Below, in pieces: positions 13,305 to 25,300 of a DNA stretch of 64,000 nt (the first letter of the stretch is position 1; each line of letters opens with the position of its first letter). The stretch lies in NCBI RefSeq assembly GCF_964275005.1, contig NC_092685.1, forward strand, positions 31,548,866-31,612,865, given 5' to 3'. The position numbers and the translations under genes are program-made. The notes under the pieces are model-generated. The model had not been told where the DNA came from, ran no database searches, and worked only from the letters and a program-made list of their open reading frames with translations. Source of the DNA: Diadema setosum. Taxonomy: Eukaryota > Echinodermata > Echinoidea > Diadematoida > Diadematidae.

Positions 13305-16300
13305 CTGCAAGGGAGGAGAATGGAAGAGAACGTGTGGCAGACAAGGACACAGTCAACCTTTGTTCATCACACATATACACTTTATTTGTCTAGTTATCTT
13401 TTTTTTTTTTTTCCTTAAAGTACAATTCAATGCAGGGTGCATGCAGGAATTTTGAAAAAGGGGGGGCGCAACTAATATTTCTGGTGCCACTTCCGGGTTT
13501 CATTTCATTTTTTTTTCTTTTTATTTCTTTTGTTTTTAACGAAAAATAAAGGGGGGGGGCGTGCGCTGCTTGCACCCCCCTCTGGATCCATCACTGCAAT
13601 TACTACATAAAACGATTACACAATCCTGCATTAATATACCATATGTCCCCCAAAAAATTACAACGGTACCCTCCGCAATGATAACTTTAAAAATAGTGAA
13701 TCAATCCAAATACAATTTCAGGGCATGAAACTATATAACTCATTGCCCACATCTTACAGAAAACCCCATTCGATTTGCTTCAGTGGTCAAAGGGGAAATG
13801 AGGAATTTTGTAGAGCATGTCAGGAATCTCTTTCCTCCCAAGTTCTGTCTATTATGTTCACACATTAATATGCAGTTCCAAGAGCATCCAAGTGCTAAAC
13901 TTGGAGGAATCAGACTCATGACATGCTTTACAAAAATCCACATTTCTCTGTGACCACTTAACCAAATTGAATTGAGTTTTCTGCAAAATAGAGCTAAAAT
14001 GCTGTATTTCAAGACCCTGAAGTAGCATTAAAGGTAGGGAATCCCATTTGCATGGCTTAAATGAAGAGTTGTATAAACACAGTGGTATGTTGAAGAGAGT
14101 ATCATTTTAGAAACTCCCATAAAGTATTGAAAGTGGAAGGTAACATTTAGTACATTTTTATTGACCGTTAGATTTTGAATTGAATTTTTTTCGGGGCTCA
14201 CCGTAAATTCCAGTACATTACTAGGCTACCTTTGCAGACCCGTGCACTGCATGTGTGTCCATCATGTATATTTTGTGAAGAAAGTTCATCAAAACTTACA
14301 AACATTTCTATACATTTTTGCCACACACTCTATATGTTATTACATCAGCTCTTATACTTTTAGATTTGTGTTTATAGATAAACTAGAAATGTCGCTTTGG
14401 CGACTGGTATGCCTCCGCCATAATGCATGATTTTCCCAATAGGTCTAGATAGTACATGTGGACACTGTGTGATTACATTTTCACAAAATTGGTAAAATAT
14501 TGGAATGACAAGTTTGTCACAAATGTGTTGAATGTTCACCTTCCTTGACGTAGGTTTAATTGGATGAATAGGAGAGCATGTATCTAGGGATTTAAGGACT
14601 TTAACTTGACTTTGACCCATTCATACATTTAGGCATTGAGTAATTTTCAAGGTACAGGTGTGGAGAAAAAGTGCAATTTCTGAATTGAATAGTAAATTGT
14701 TACCATTTTCATCTGGCCCTTGACCCTAAAATTCATAAGATAATTACTTTCAGGTAGAACATGCATAATATGTACTAAGTTTCAAGGTAACTTGAGCCAC
14801 TTCCGAGATATGGAGGAAAAAGTTAGTTCAGCACTTTCACTTGATCTTTGACCTTTTGACCTTTGAGGCAAAAAGAGAAAAAAAAAAAAACTTTCCAGAG
14901 AATTTCTATTAGGTTACACACGCATACACCAAGTGTAAAAAAATAACCCTGCTGGCATTGCATAAATATGAGGGTAATAGTAAAATTTTGAAGTCTTGCA
15001 CTTGACCTTTGACCCCTGACCTTTGACCCCATGAACCCTACATTCTCTAGATAATCACTTCCAGTCAGTACATGTATATACTATGTTCCATGAAGATACC
15101 TTGAACAATTTTCCAAGGTACGGAGAAAAAAAAAGAAGTTTTAATATTTTTACTTTACCTTTTGACCTTTGACCTTTGACCTCATGACTCAAACTTTCAC
15201 CAGAGAATCTTAATTGGGTAATACATGTATACACTAAGTTTCAAGAAAATCTCTTCAGGCATTCAATAGATATGGTGGAAACAGTGAAATTTTATGTATT
15301 TGACCCTGACCTTTTGACCTTTGACCTTTGACCTCATGACCCAAACTTTCACCAGAGAATCTTAATTGGGTAATACATGTATACACTAAGTTTCAAGAAA
15401 ATCTCTTCAGGCATTCACTAGATATGGTGGAAATAGTGAAATTTTATATATTTGACCTTGACCTTTTTGACCTTTGACCTTGAGCATGTGCACCCAAAAG
15501 TTGATAGGCACAACTTCACCCCCTAATACACATACATGCCAAGTTTCATTAGGATACCTCAACAGGTTTCGATAGTTACCTTGTCCACAAAATTCATTAC
15601 GGACGGACGGAAGGACGGACGGACGGACAACCCGAAAACATAATGCCTCCAGCACCACTTCGTGGCGGAGGCATAAAAAAAATACAGAAGACTGCAACAA
15701 AAAGGCTTAAGTGTGGCTGACACACAAAACTACTGGGTAGTTGAGTTTTGTGCATTATTCAAATTGTAGATAACTGTTGACTTCCAAATTTCTAAGCAGT
15801 GGCCTAAACAAGTCCCCTGAGGTTCATATTTAATGTTTTGCTGCATTTTGGGAGTTCTGTAAAAGGTATCCCCTACCTTTAAGACGGTTTGATAATATTG
15901 GGTGTTATCAATGCGAAAATCTGATTGTAATTTTTGGGGGGACATACTGTACATACGCATGGAGGTCATTCATGTCGGGATCAGGATCATCCAGAGTAAA
16001 TATTTTTCGCATATTGTACTGGACTCATAAAAAAAATTGTGAATTAGTAACACATACAGTTAATTAGTATATATGTGGTTGCAACCAATACCCCTTTACA
16101 GGTGAAAACATATGAAACTTGTACAAAAAAAAAAGAAAAGAAAAAAAAAATCCATTACTTTCTTATCTCGTGTGATGTCCTAGCTTGAGATATCTCAAAT
16201 TTTGGACACATTTAATTCTCAACTCGAATGGAGGGTGGAATTGCAAAGGAAAGGCAACAAGTATGGATGAACCATGGATATAAACAAATGCACACACCTT

Positions 16301-19300
16301 GAATGGCTTGTCTGGCCACCCGAGACGACTTTGGTCTGGCGGTGGTCTGGCGCTTCTCGAACTCGTCCAAGCTGTTCTCCCGGGCACTCTTCTTACTGGC
16401 AATCAGCATGTCGCGCTGCTGCTTCAGATACTGCGCCCGCTTCTCAAGGTCGCTGGGATCCGCATTTGACAGATTCTGGTTGGAGGATGGGGGGGGGGGG
16501 GAGGGAGAAGGGTGGATAATAGGTAATAAGATGGATGAGATAGGAAAGTTTTGTAGTTTTCTTCATTTGTTTAGGTGTTGTTGTTTTTTTCTTTTCAAAA
16601 TTTTAAACATATCAGGAATATGGTAAGCCATGTGTGCTGTGACTGAATTTATCATCTAATTAATAAAGTGTAACACACGTGTACATGTTGATATCTTCTC
16701 AGATATGAACCCGCAGACAGCAGCTTGGGTAAAGCATTACACAGTCAACAATAACAGAAAATATCCTTGTTTAAGTAAATGAGATTGTTTGAGTTTTTTT
16801 CTTCATTAACAAGAAGTTAGAAATACGAAGTGAGAAGCAGGACATGTCTGTAATATCCTGTATTCGGCATGCATGACTTACGCTAATGCGGGAATCCGAT
16901 CGCCCGCTGCTCTCCGCTGCCTCTGCCTTGGCGCTAAGCAACCAGTTGGCTGCGGCCTCCTGGCCAGTGAGAGGTCTGGCAGACGAGGCACTGCTGGCGG
17001 TGCTGGTTGACGACGGTGTGGGGGACTTGGGTAGGCTGGCTAAAGATGATGACTTGCTGGCGGAAGCCTTCTTAATGGATGACAAGCATTAGGGGGACAA
17101 AACGGCCATTCAATGCTAGGACTTGTTAGCAGTTTGTTGGGCATCAAATATATCATACATGCACGGCTGCACACTAACTGTCTTTTCTACTGGCCCATCC
17201 TGTCCCTGTCAGACCAGTAGATACCAAGTTTTCCATTTTTACTGGTCTGAACCTTAAATTTACTGGTCCTTCACTTTCTGAAATTCTTGCATCATGTTAA
17301 CTATCACTGATTAATCTGGTGCTTATTTATGTTGATGTTGGGCAATTTGACAATCAGTTGCAATAAAATATTTACTGTCTGGTCCTGATCTTTTTTTCAA
17401 CTGGCCTTGACAATGTTAAATTTTATTTGCTGGTGATGTCTGACCAGTAAATTTGGAAATTCCCCAAAAGTTACTAGCCCGATAGTGATTTTTAACAGTC
17501 TGGGACCGTCGGACCAGTGCCAGTGTTAAGCACTAATATATGCCATGTAGCTGCCATGGCTACACCTATGCCATGATCAATCACGTTGAAGCATTGCACA
17601 GATTCTGCTTTTCACAGTACACTGCAAGTACATTGAGTCTTGGTGTCATGAAACTGACATTAAGGCTTCTTGGTTGCCTGACCTACATGTCTACTAAACT
17701 GTGCTTCTCAACTCATGGGCTGCAAAGCTCTCATACAAGATGGGTCAGGATATTGGCCAAAAATTATATAAAAAAGATTCTCATTGGATTGAACTGGGCA
17801 TAAAAAAAAAACAAAAAAATATAGGAGCCCAAGCAGACCTCAGATTAAACAAGAGACCCGCGGGTCTAGCGCTCACCTGAGGATCGCAAGTTCACCTTTC
17901 ACGCAGTCACTAATCTAAATTATTCACAGCTCTACCAAAATTTGATCGGGCATTCTCAAGTAGAAGATGAAACTGTACAATAAGGGCCCAAATTTTTTAA
18001 GATTCCTTAATTTGGGGGAATTGGGGGCCCCCTGGGGCCCTCTGAGTGGGGCATGGTGCCCATTTTTATAAATTGAGATCCTGACCCCCTAGGGATGCTA
18101 CCTGCCAAGTTTGACGAAAATACATCATGAGGTTTTCAGGAAGAAGATGAAAATGTACATTTCAGGTCCCCATTTGGACCTTCCCAACCAACCCCCCCCC
18201 CCCCTGCCCCCAAGAGGGGCACCCCTTGATCTCCTATGAACAAACTTGAAAATACAGTCATTAATGTACTCACTCATAGTATTATCTTACCTCTATAACT
18301 TCTGATTCTAGAGAAGATTTTTAAGATTCCTTCATTTTGGGGGTTTGGGCCCCCCTGGGGGCCCCCTGGGTGGGGTATGGTACCCATTTTAAAAAATTGA
18401 GATCCTAACCCCCTAGGGATGCTACCTGCCAAGTTTGGTGAAAATGGGTCATGAGGTTCTCAAGAAGAAGATAAAAATGAACAATTTAGGCCCCATTAGG
18501 ACCCCTCCTCACCCCCCCCCCCCCCCCCTGGGTCCCAAGGGGGGCACCCCTGATTCTGCCATGAACAAACTTGAAACTACAGTCATCAATGTACAAACTC
18601 ATAGTATTAAATTAGCTCTATCACTTCTGGTTCTGGAGAAGAAGATTTTTACAGATTCCTTAATTTTGGGGCATTTGGGCCCCCTGGGGGCCCCCTGGGT
18701 GGGGCATGGTGCCCATTTTAACAAATTGAGTTCCTAACCCCCTAGGGATGCTACCTGCCAAGTTTGATGAAAATGGGTCATGGGGTTCTCAAGAAGAAGA
18801 TGAGAATGTACAATTTAGGCCCCATTAGAACCCCTCCCCACCCCCCTCCCCTGGGTCCCAAGGGGGGCACCCCTGATTTTGCCATGAACAAATTTGAAAC
18901 TACAGTCATCAATGTACTAACTCATAGAACTAACTTAGCTCTATCACTTCTGGTTCTAGAGAAGAAGATTTTTACAGATTCCTTAATTTTGGGGCATTTG
19001 GGCCCCCTGGGGGCCCCCTGGGTGGGGCATGGTACCCATTTTAACAAATTGAGTTCCTAACCCCCTAGGGATGCTACCTGCCAAGTTTGATGAAAATCGG
19101 TCTTGGGGTTTTCAAGAAGAAGATGAAAATGTAAAAAGTTTACGCACGACGCACGCCGGACGAAGGGCGATCGCAATAGCTCACTTGAGCCTTTGGCTCA
19201 GGTGAGCTAAAAAGGTTGAGAAGCGCAGTACTAAAACATCCCTAGCATCATATTCATGCTTACTACTCACACAGACTGTAATTGAAGTATTAGAGCATTT

Positions 19301-22300
19301 GTTAGAATATGGATGACAAGAACGTCTGAGAAAATTACGCTCATAGTTGGTCTTATACTCAATTGGATTTTCAGTTCAAACCATTTATATCAACCCATCT
19401 TCTTTCAAAGATGGAATGGCTGTAAACAACTGTTTACATTGATTTATACAGATTTATCGAAATGCAAGACTATCTTACCTCAGGTTTTGAAGACTTTGAC
19501 TTTCCTGATGAACTGTCAGAAATGGCTAATTTCAGAGTCTGTGGATGAATAAAATTCAGCTACAACTAAACAAATTGTTGAGTATAATTCAGGCTACATT
19601 TTGCTTCCTTGATGAAGGCAGACTTCTCTTCTTTGAATTGTAGTATCTTTTATATATTCTTGTTTACATCATGAGCAGTTTGGAATGTGGCAAAAATGCA
19701 GACATACCCAAACTGATATCAGGATATGGTATCTGTGCCATTCAATATGCGGTGATTTTAGCAAATGTAAACTGCACATAATTCACAAATCTTGCAAAGA
19801 GTTAACACAATCATATCCCAACTTTACTTCGCTTTAATGACAGCTGTAAATAACCATAACAAAATTTGTAAATGTAAATGATTGAATCTCTTTCCATAGT
19901 GAGAATAGATAGAAGGTGTTCTTTTAAATGAATTGATGGTGCATGACTTTACTTCAAGACAGCAGGCTAACATGTGTTGCAAATTGGATCACTTTTACAA
20001 CTCCTTTAAGTTGTATAAGGTCCTTGCATCACTTTGAAAAGTGACTACATGGAGGGCTGCTAACATTCCCCAATCAAAATCAGGACGATCCCAAAATCAG
20101 GACAATTCCAGAAAGAGCAATCAAGAAGATATTGTGCATTACATGCAAATCAATAGACGGCCAAAATAATGTCTGGTAGCTAAGACACAGAGGCTTTTGT
20201 ATTTCATTGTCAGGACATGTTTTTGTTTTTAGATTCATAATTGGTTTGGATTAATATAAGCCAAGGAGAAATTAAGTAGATATGAGTTTTTTGTTTTTTC
20301 TATTGCAGTGCAATGAAGTATATGTATACAGCAGCTGCTATGATGTTATGTAAAGTGCTGTGAAACAACTTCTAGTTTGAAAGAGCACAATACAAACGAC
20401 ATTATTGTTTTGTACTGTATCCATTTCAGACTTGATAATAATGAAAACACAACAGGACTAGTATGTTTTAAAGTGAAAACATAGTTCTTGTATGGCTGCA
20501 GAACTGTTGATTCTGCATACCCTCTACTGAGCGGGGAGGGCACTTTCTGAATAAAAATGGGTAACCTGACTTTTATTATGTCACACATATGCGATGTCAA
20601 AATACTACAAGAAATATCTCAATATCTTGGCAAATTGTGTCTGCCAGACAAGTTTTTTGGTAGAGCTCTTTGATATATTGCTGGCAAATTTAAACTGGGG
20701 AAAGGTAAATTTATAGCCCGTAAGAGTACTATGTTTTACCATTAAAATGAATGTAAGTTAAACAACAGAAAACACACAAACACACACACACTTAGGTCCG
20801 AATTCACAAAGGTGGTACAAATTTAAACCATGGCTCATGCAAATTTCTTCCACTTAAATACGACTGACAGATTGCATACACCAACAGACGTCTAGTAACA
20901 AACGCACATCAATACGTACATGTCAAAGGTACGCCTATTTCACACCTATTTTGGACCATTGTCTAAATTTGTACCATGGTCTAAGTTAAAATCAGGTTTA
21001 AATAACCTTAGTGAATTTGGGCCTAGAGTGGAACTGATCCCTTGCCTTTTGTAAGACCTCTTCTTCCTTCTCTTTCTGCTTCTGAAGCTGCTGCACCTCC
21101 TTGCCCGTGGCCAGTGACTTGTCCATGGCAGGGTTCACATGACTGGTCTTCTTTTTGCTCTTTACCATCTGATCGTATTCTTCTTTGGATTTCCTTGAAA
21201 GGCGAGGGGGCAGGAGTGGAGCAATACCACAATAAAATCACAGAGAGATGAAGTCTTATGTGCATCGCTTGTCCACACCTGATTGCTTCGCTAGAACTTT
21301 TTTAGAGAGCAGTTGTTGCCCCATTTCACATTTTAAAATACACTTTTTGCATCACTGTACAAGATGCCATCACCACACTTAAAGGATAAGAAAACCTGGT
21401 ATTAAATACTTTCATTTCACCAAGAGTTGGCATTTTGATATAAATATACAGCCATATCTATCCATCTTTGGATCCATCTATCTTTAGGATTAACACTGTA
21501 CTGTTTTCCCCACCATGAGTATCCTACCACTATCATCACCCAAGTAGTTCCAGGCACCCATTTTTTTATAGTTCAGTCAAGAGACATAGCGGATAAAACT
21601 AGAAATATCACTTAAGGTGATTAATACCCCCGCCACGACAGTCTTACCCAAGGAATGATCTTTCCTTGATCTTCTGCCATTTAAATGCCGTTACCATGGC
21701 AACGCAGCTTCTGACACGTCTGAAAAATGTCTTGCACATCTTCCCACCAAGACTGTTGTGTGTGCCACATTTCATAAGCTTTTGTCAAAAACTGAGGAAG
21801 TAGTTCAATCCACAAGATCTTTCCTTGATCTTCCACCATTAATATGCCATTACCATGGCAACGCAGCTTCCGACATGTCCAAAAAATATGTCTTGCACAT
21901 CTTCCCACCAAGACCAATGTGTGTGCCACATTTCATGAGCTTCAGTCGAATACAGAGGAAGTAGTTCAATCCACAAGATCTTTCCTTGATCTTCTGCCAT
22001 TTATATGCCGTTACCATGGCAACGCAGCTTCCGACACGTCCGAAAAATATGTCTTCCACATCTTCCCACCAAGATCAACGTGTGTGCCACATTTCATAAG
22101 CTTTGGTCAAAAAACTGAGGAAGTAGTTAAATCCGCAAGATCTTTCCTTGATCTTCTGCCATTAATATGCCGTTACCATGGCAACGTACTTTCGGGTACT
22201 GTCAAAAAATGCGTCTTGCACATCTACAACCAAAGGCACACATCTGTACCAAGTTTCATGGAAATTGGGCAAAAACTGAGGAAGTAGTTTGCAACACAAA

Positions 22301-25300
22301 ATTTTCCATCATTTTGGCTCATAATATGTGAGCTGTTACCATGGCAACATACTTTTTGTCACTGTCAAGAAATGTGTCATGCTGACCTATATACTAACAC
22401 AAACATTCAATATGAATTCCATGAGAATTGGAAGAACACTGATGAAGCAGTTTTGCCATGAAGCATTTTGCCCTATATTTTACCAATAACATGCCGTTAC
22501 CATGGCAACGCACTTTTTGCCACTGCGGAAATATGTGTCTTGCACATTAACATATTCAGATGAACATCTGTACCTAATTTCATAAAAATTGATCAAAAAC
22601 TGTGGGAGGAATTCGCAACGCAAGATTTGTACCCATTTTTGCCCATAATATGCCGTTACCATGGCAACGTACTTTTGGGTACTGTCAAAAAATACGTCTT
22701 GCACATCTACAACCCAAGGCACACATCTGTGCCAAGTTTTATGGGAATCGGTTGAAAACTGAGGAAGTAGTTCGTGACGCAAGATTTGCAACGGACCGAC
22801 CGCCCGACCGCCCGACCGTCCACTGATTCCTATATACTGTAAAAGTGGAAATTTTCGCGGTGTTGAAATTTTCGCGCATTTCGCGCAACCAGAAACTAGC
22901 GCGAAAATAAAAACACGCGAATATTTTTGCTTGCCATACGTTCCTGTGCGTGATGTCTTGATTCCGCGGAATTAAAAACATGCGAAACTCTTCTGACCCG
23001 GCCTAGCGCGAAAAATTAGTCGCGCGAAAATATTCACTTTTACAGTACCCCCTTCAAACTTCGTTTTGCGGGGGTATAACAACTCTTTCAAAATGTAGAA
23101 TTCCCATCCAAGATATCATGCTGAAGGGTTCTGAGCTTTATCCCATAACCACAGGCTTTCACATGCATGTGAAAACAAAACAATTTAAAACTAGAAAAGC
23201 ACTTGTAGAGTGCAGACCTCTGCCAAGCAGCTCATTACCACCCATCCATACATGCGTGTTGAAAATCGCCCAATTTCAGAATATAGAAGCCTTTTGTTTA
23301 TGTCATCAGCTACCAGCTACGTGGCGCATCTCCCGAGCAGAGCACATGCTTTAGAGTGCGTGTGAAACCTCAAATACGTGCAGCTTCTACTCCCAAGTTC
23401 ATTGACCCTATTTGCAAAATGATCAAAAATCCTTCAAAAATTCATAAAAATTCTCGCATCACTACTAATATTGAATCATTTGTTCCTTGTGTCATTATCA
23501 ATTTTTCCTGCAAGTTTCTTTCAAAGCCATTTACATTTTTTTGAGTCATTTTGCAAACAGACAAACCAACACCAACGATCACTTAATCTCCTCCTTCCTC
23601 GGCAGAGGTAAAAAACAAAACAAAACAAAACAAAAATGAGAAGAAAAACCCACTGCATAACTTCCTGAAAGATGCGCTCCTCCTCATTGTCCACCATTGC
23701 CTTGGAGTGCTCTACCGGTGTCTCCTCCCCGGGCTTCAGGATGCTGGGGATCTGGCCACTCCTCTGCTGCAGCAGGGTCAGGGCCTGTAGCTCCAGCTCC
23801 ACATTCTTCTGGGTCATCATGACCTTGAAGGTCTCAAAGTCCTGGGCCGCATACACCTGCTCCAGCACAGTCTGTTAGGGGGAGGGAGGGGGAGTGGGGG
23901 TTGGGTAGGAAGGGGAGTGGGAAGGGATTGGGAGGGGAGCGGGTGGGGAGTGGAAGGGGAGTGGGAGGAGAGTTGGAGGTGAGGGGAGTGGGAGGGGAGG
24001 GGAGGGGAAGGGAGGGGAAGGGAGGGGAGTGGGAGGGGAGGGGGAGTGGGAGAGGAGTTGAGGGGAGTTGGAGGTGAGGGGAGTGAGAGGGGAGTGGGAG
24101 GGGAGGAGGAATTGGGAGGGGAGTGGGAGGGGAGTGGGAGAGGAGGAGGAGTTGGGAGGGGAGTGGGAAAGGAGTGGGAAAGGAGGGGAGGGGAGGGGAG
24201 GAGGGGAGGGGAGGGGGAATGTACACATTATGGCTTACCACATTGAAAAGCACTAACAGCTTTCAAACAGAAGAAGCAAATATTGGTAGCCTTGATAGTA
24301 TGCCACAAATTTGCAACCATTATACAAAAGCATAGTCATCGTCCTATCAAATGTAGTTCCTAAAAATTCTCTTCACACAGTGAGTCAGATATTTGCAAAT
24401 TTTATTACAAATGTCTAAATGACATTTCACAAATACTAGTACACACAGTTTGAAAAAAGACAAATTGTCTCAATTATACATGTGCACATTTTGTACACTT
24501 GATGATTGGAATATCTAAATCTTGAAAAGAGTGTAATTTACGTTGAAATTTTACAGAAGCAAATTTCATTCACATACCTTCACAGACACAAATGGTACTC
24601 ACATTTGAACCTAGAACTCATGTATCCCCAAATGTATGCTTCACCTCTTAGATCCTGTGAAGTCATGTTTATTATACATGAGAATTTCAGGCATATTGCA
24701 CTGTAAGTGTTCAAAAAATCTTGGGTAATCCTATCAATGGCTTGAAAGGCTTCAATACTGTAAAATCAGAAGCATTCACAGCATGAAACTTTTGTGAATT
24801 GGAGCTGGTGGACTTTGTCGCAGCATGAAATATTCACAAACTGGCACTGGCCTTCAATGCTTTGCGTAGAAAAGAGCTTTCATGTGCATTTTACTTTCGC
24901 GAATCTTATCTCTTCGTAGAATTTGGGAAAGTGTCCAACATGTAAAAATTTCTGTTTTTACAGTAAAATGACACTTACAATTGTCGCTTGAGAATTTTTA
25001 CTCTTGAATGCTTGGCAGACATCAAGGAATGCACGTTCGTTGATGCCAAGGTCCTCCAGAAAGCTCTCCAGTAGACTGTCCACCTGGTCCAAATTTAGTG
25101 GGGGAGGAAGAGCATGTTTAGTACCACGTACTTGCAGTTAGGGTTGCAAACAATCCTCAAAACAACATGGCAAAATTTCATCCAAATCAGATATGCAATA
25201 AGAAAATTATCATGACATTTGAAAGTTTCACATATCGTCATTAAATGGTGGTTGCAACGAATAAGGCATACCATTTGAGGTGATGATGTCATCAACTTGC

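Follow-up and report, generated by a model that had tools for sequence, protein, structure and literature searches.

We analysed four repeat elements, A to D, in a 64,000-nucleotide stretch of the Diadema setosum genome (contig NC_092685.1 of GCF_964275005.1, positions 31,548,866 to 31,612,865; hereafter the window). Their anatomy very strongly suggests that all four are non-autonomous Helentron-type rolling-circle elements of the HINE/DINE-1/pearl kind, lying on the minus strand. Read on that strand, each consists of a T-run, a 5' subterminal inverted repeat (subTIR), a second subTIR, a short hairpin, the end CTAG (CTTG in B) and T; A, B and C additionally carry central tandem repeats and a repeat that folds on the 5' subTIR.

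An initial annotation, made from the sequence alone, had read the same elements on the opposite strand, as unrelated sequences sharing a 5' hairpin and matched end motifs. The start motifs, 5-bp hairpins and inverted motif pairs were all present where it had placed them, blastn among A-D gave zero matches at E<=1e-3, as expected of unrelated sequences, and the likeness that it saw to Helentron-associated elements is borne out by the anatomy. The strand has to be reversed: given the order of the parts on the minus strand, the end formerly called 5' lies 3', and the A's noted after the inverted motif are the 5' T-run. This A-run is present in A, B and D, but there is hardly any in C, where the inverted pair matches at 9/9 positions (21625-21633 / 23068-23076) and leaves the trailing CA of the annotated motif cccccgcca unpaired. 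The start motif AACTAGAAA, exact at 14381 (A), 21597 (C) and 23189 (D), with AACAAGAGA at 17848 (B), is the reverse of TTTCTAG|TT, a Helitron-type 3' terminus; its leading AA is treated here as flank. As A-D thus look like HINE-type elements viewed on the wrong strand, the '5' hairpin' corresponds to a signal already known from their 3' ends, which makes the find an essentially ordinary one. The features are as follows.

14383..15675, minus strand: element A, HINE-type, 1,293 bp without the flanking T-run
14383..14386, minus strand: A 3' terminus CTAG, with Ts next on the element strand; placed by divergence past CTAGTT between window A and 10 copies
14391..14404, minus strand: A 3' hairpin, 5-bp stem and 4-nt loop
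14408..14420, minus strand: A 3' subTIR
14839..15498, minus strand: A central tandem repeats, period ~152
15599..15628, minus strand: A microsatellite, GTCC on the element strand
15643..15657, minus strand: A inverted repeat that folds back onto the 5' subTIR (5' hairpin)
15663..15675, minus strand: A 5' subTIR, T-run before it
17850..19208, minus strand: element B, HINE-type, ending 3' in CTTG (17850-17853)
17854..17867, minus strand: B 3' hairpin, abutting CTTG
17871..17881, minus strand: B 3' subTIR
17994..19133, minus strand: B central tandem repeats, period 323
19178..19191, minus strand: B feature between tandem repeats and 5' subTIR
19197..19207, minus strand: B 5' subTIR
21599..23077, minus strand: element C, HINE-type, CTAG at 21599-21602
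21607..21621, minus strand: C 3' hairpin
21625..21633, minus strand: C 3' subTIR, 9 bp
21657..22787, minus strand: C central tandem repeats, period ~160
22794..22818, minus strand: C short GACC/GCCC repeat, found by eye outside the tandem-repeat list
23046..23058, minus strand: C inverted repeat that folds back onto the 5' subTIR
23068..23076, minus strand: C 5' subTIR
23191..23609, minus strand: element D, HINE-type and short (419 bp), with CTAG at 23191-23194
23199..23213, minus strand: D 3' hairpin
23216..23227, minus strand: D 3' subTIR
23598..23609, minus strand: D 5' subTIR, differing from its partner at one position

Along element A, the T-run is followed by TATGCCTCCGCCA (the 5' subTIR), the back-folding partner, the GTCC microsatellite and the ~152-bp repeats, and then by TGGCGGAGGCATA (the 3' subTIR), the hairpin GTCGC-CAAA-GCGAC and the end ATTTCTAG before TT. 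Paired subTIRs near both ends, a hallmark of HINE/DINE-1 elements at about 11-15 bp, were matched at 13/13 positions in A, 11/11 in B and 11/12 in D, with 9 bp in C. The 3' hairpin characteristic of the same elements was found in 4/4, and the 5' subTIR folds with its partner in A (-10.5 kcal/mol), B (-13.0 kcal/mol) and C (-8.4 kcal/mol), whereas D shows a weak fold there (-2.6 kcal/mol). The target is T-rich, and at the two insertions with empty sites there is no duplication beyond the Ts.

The ends of A proved to be genuine boundaries: window A and 10 copies share sequence up to CTAGTT and diverge outside it, and the 5' ends of the copies have a T-run plus ATGCCTC in common. Eight of the ten copies (L001-L008) were found via the first 100 bases of A and two (L014, L023) in grid-placed stretches. 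L005 contains an 11th copy, which is older (76% identical) and has CTAT instead of CTAG. In that stretch (192-2270) a young A copy (413-1600) is nested in the older A-family copy, whose ends are 76-80% identical to A, so that the A family was active more than once. Whole-genome counts, made in the 912,680,840-base assembly, gave 2,986 exact occurrences of the A 5' 33-mer (1,487 + 1,499). With up to 3 mismatches, the 3'-end patterns of A, B and C were found 3,842 (1,909 + 1,933), 1,341 (659 + 682) and 536 (263 + 273) times, respectively, and their reversed controls 0 times in each case. For D there were 1,837 first-look candidates; all 40 of the 40 scored matched, the window's own among them, and 28/40 matches started at query base 7-11, where AACTAG begins at base 9.

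Insertion sites were studied in 15 elements, 4 in the window and 11 further ones, and the termini could be paired in all of them. At least 2 Ts were present on each side in 15/15 (2-9 left, 2-10 right). When both flanks of the L026 copy of B were joined with 6 Ts, 40/40 scored places (from 541 candidates) matched across the junction, at 92-95% identity and with 33/40 spanning all 95 bases. The filled site has 5+4 Ts, which compared with the 6 in the joined query corresponds to a net gain of about 3 Ts. For the A copy in L002 the two flanks were placed on either side of 4 Ts; this query returned 34 matches, of which 32 cross the junction and 2 are the halves of the filled site. These empty sites are known from match spans rather than from a letter-by-letter reading. 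In the sampled stretches only the B copy in L026 gave a usable site; the sites for the L005, L014 and L003 copies were too diverged to read. In the empty-site check proposed with the initial annotation, made for one B and one A insertion, target duplication beyond the Ts is unnecessary at both, and duplication of the Ts themselves is undecidable. That undecidability and the inverted repeats near both ends are what could favour miniature inverted-repeat transposable elements (MITEs) derived from cut-and-paste transposons that carry subterminal repeats and make a TT/TTT target duplication, but MITEs have terminal inverted repeats and a target duplication, and with asymmetrically placed repeats (the 3' one clearly subterminal), a 3' hairpin plus CTAG and no duplication beyond the Ts at the two insertions, this origin is barely credible.

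Perfect 5-bp stems were found in 4/4 elements, each between the 3' subTIR and the 3' end. For random sequence composed like the window, the probability of such a stem is ~0.015 per site, with bounds (gap 0-5, loop 4-5) that were chosen after viewing the four; four of four is therefore beyond chance, though the elements had been pre-selected by the initial annotation. The four differing stems, each perfectly paired, had been taken there as compensated change and as the mark of a new class whose family-specific 5' hairpin is a code for the transposase. We consider such a class very unlikely. In the published anatomy the hairpin belongs to the 3' end, and the '5' hairpin' is its view from the opposite strand (PMC2374699, PMC4067079, PMC3627910); changing stems are already in print. 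DINE-1 3' hairpins with changing but paired stems were described in 2008 with reference to 'compensatory mutations' (PMC2374699), and Helitron2 followed in 2013, with a hairpin at each end, one of them after the 3' repeat, and with compensatory changes for a pair of related elements (PMC3627910). The Helraiser 3' hairpin was reported in 2016 to act as a terminator; swapping the stem but not the loop retained ~90% activity, which also speaks against a stem code, and a loop change equalled deletion of the hairpin (PMC4778049). That swap is a precedent for the claim that the machinery reads the fold and not the letters of the stem, but compensated change among A-D was not demonstrated. As A-D cannot be aligned with each other, their stems show a recurring hairpin and are unable to show compensated substitution or covariation. 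Within families no compensated change was seen in the few copies examined, for which no systematic test was made; A copies L001-L008, having been picked by their match to A's own end, are useless for that purpose. Among the few divergent D relatives, stems were imperfect in L009, L021 and L027 and the hairpin was absent in L024 (L021 was judged by eye); those in L009, L024 and L027 also matched D in sequence comparison. Imperfect stems are as expected of old copies, and CpG loss may contribute to the decay.

A structural screen for CTNGTT, a hairpin and an inverted 9-mer, covering the window and 20 grid-placed 10-kb stretches (264 kb), returned 7 hits versus 0-3 (mean 1.1) in 20 Markov controls. 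A, B and C were correctly recovered; D, whose real pair contains a mismatch, scored by way of a chance 9-mer, and 3 others, equal to the largest control, are unexplained. Copies of A and B already known from L014, L023 and L026 escaped the screen. At L017 8951 the screen picked out a candidate element of 346 bp, in which CCGCACCCC repeats are inverted and a 9-bp hairpin stands ahead of CTGG. At window 59533, AACAAGAAAT is followed by a perfect ATTGT/ACAAT stem, like in A-D, for which the screen found zero inverted partners. The motif AACTAGAAA alone was rejected as a signal, as it occurred with at most 1 mismatch 28 times in the window versus 27.45 expected. A fourth exact AACTAGAAA lies at 332-340 on the minus strand, outside the A-D set, and near the window edge, at 340 on the minus strand, AACTAGAAATATCC...GGAGATTAATAG looks by eye like a decayed C-type 3' end.

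The genome also contains candidate movers. PF14214 (Helitron_like_N) gave 49 genome matches, and 21 fall in frames 3,276-3,517 aa long; PF05970 (PIF1) gave 61, which in the large frames, of equal length for the two profiles, begin ~2.1 kb past the start of the Rep match. These frames (L030-L048, G000:C1:14829700 and others) are unusually long for the Helentron type. In the 20 loci examined the Rep motif was IEFQQRGSPHTH (17) or IEFQMRGSPHVH (3); the form with S is the Helentron type according to PMC4067079, so these Rep proteins are of that type. Upstream of Rep in L031 there are RYQNNALFRERLKKM-like repeats and a DUF6570 domain. Beyond the stop of the long frame, located by manual frame count, two aligned copies were alike for ~1.1 kb at 83% identity, without long frames. 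No element end was present within that ~1.1 kb and none was recognised in 400 further bases of one copy; 500 bases located 9.3 kb past the Rep start had zero open frames of 60 aa. Among 100 of the 2,986 exact A 5' ends (C1 up to 19.6 Mb), 0 lay within 15 kb of the three Rep matches located there. The search for a Rep/Helicase partner with the same ends thus yielded a Helentron-type Rep in the genome but no shared ends in the stretches compared, which stop short of the element ends. As those ends were not reached, the tie of A-D to the genome's Helentron-type Rep proteins is drawn from anatomy.

By analogy with the Helitron literature, a Rep/Helicase made elsewhere would cut the T-rich 5' end beside the subTIR and unwind the element, halt at the 3' hairpin and nick after CTAG/CTTG; the freed strand would then join a T-rich target with no target duplication. 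If the hairpin serves as a terminator, its stem sequence may drift freely among families.

Several observations weigh against the assignment to HINE-type elements. The CTAG/CTTG end is nearer to Helitron1 than to DINE-1 ends, the subTIR of C is just 9 bp where ~11-15 bp is usual, D is without tandem repeats and without a clear partner repeat, and B lacks a GTCY microsatellite. The empty-site matches for the A copy in L002, at 79-89% identity, were mostly as short as 45-60 bases. A C-terminal AP endonuclease fused to the Rep/Helicase, as in autonomous Helentrons, is weakly suggested: downstream of the Rep frame an apparently decayed endonuclease-like piece (L050), with GDFN by eye, scored E=0.062 with PF03372, below the cut-off, while a second piece had zero profile matches. 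Lastly, blastn of A-D against the Helentron stretches examined, which stop short of the element ends, found zero similarity.

The Helitron1-like end also bears on a more far-reaching view, namely that several unrelated HINE families of one genome combine such CTAG/CTTG ends with Helentron subTIRs, each matched subTIR-hairpin set serving as an address by which one Rep/Helicase lineage would recognise its own elements among others; we regard this as improbable. The four are most probably new families of HINE kind, in which CTAG/CTTG joined to Helentron subTIRs is a mild variation with precedents. That A-D might be canonical Helitron1-type non-autonomous elements (5' TC, 3' CTRR, insertion between A and T) converged on subTIRs is suggested by the CTAG terminus with a hairpin 4 nt upstream in A, C and D, which agrees with 3' CTRR plus an upstream hairpin (CTTG of B is not CTRR), and by a lepidopteran Helitron that joins subterminal repeats with CTAG (PMC4344730). 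This is nevertheless highly doubtful: the 5' ends are a T-run plus ATGCC, AGCTC, ATACC or ACCTC, never TC, the absence of inverted repeats and the A|T insertion of Helitron1 are not seen in A-D, where subTIRs are present and Ts flank both sides, and the Rep motifs of the 20 loci are Helentron-type. The marks of Helitron2, a hairpin at either end together with asymmetric terminal inverted repeats, were found in A, B and C, with a weak 5' hairpin in D.

Inside C lies a palindromic repeat of 213 bp (22835-23047) with 25-bp arms, 92% complementary, and a TACTGTAAAAGTG end, which looks like a MITE; its right part has related copies in L010, L013, L021, L022, L026 and L027. Beside D, the minus-strand frame 23524-23874 is an exon matching ARL2_Bind_BART (E 2.6e-5), adjoined by a long GGGGA-type minisatellite at 23879-24219, and its gene we take to be CFAP36-like. 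The frames 20998-21237 and 16215-16562, taken for further exons, had zero profile matches over the cut-off; B, C and D are intronic if these two frames are exons.

For annotation, four families, at least three of them high-copy, can now be assigned a strand, ends and a likely mechanism, and their CTAG/CTTG terminus offers a simple anchor for finding more such elements in this genome. The case also cautions that a Helitron-like element on the reverse strand mimics a new 5' hairpin class. The address idea, if true, would bear on the choice of partner protein by non-autonomous Helentrons.

Among the known systems, HINE/DINE-1 elements (PMC4067079, PMC2374699) share with A-D the subTIRs, the 5' partner repeat, central tandem repeats, a hairpin past the 3' subTIR and T-rich insertion with no clear duplication, and with A the GTCY microsatellite. 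The HINE plan, including the 3' palindrome, is tied to Helentrons, and a proto-Helentron with a CTAG end is reported (PMC4067079). They differ in that DINE-1 ends are reported without CTRR (PMC2374699), whereas the terminus is CTAG in A, C and D and CTTG in B; Helraiser vectors without the hairpin or the right end gave some insertions ending in CTTG (PMC4778049), and fungal elements are described with similar ends (PMC5148889). Helitron2 (PMC3627910) resembles A-D in its asymmetric terminal inverted repeats, its 5'-repeat hairpin and the hairpin after the 3' repeat, but its Chlamydomonas examples insert after TTTT and, in the account of PMC4067079, its RepHel is without endonuclease. Lepidopteran Hel-2 has a 5' inverted repeat, a subterminal inverted repeat, a 3' stem-loop and CTAG like A-D, but starts with TC and inserts between A and T (PMC4344730). 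PMC4067079 counts the Tsp transposons of sea urchin (Cohen 1985) among DINE-1-like elements. In the oyster genome there are several HINE families with satellite-like repeats; these Cg_HINE/pearl elements, 11 of which are distinguished in one genome, have other sequences in another species but, compared by internal layout, share with A-D satellite-like tandem repeats between end modules and a GTCC-type microsatellite (PMC7492417).

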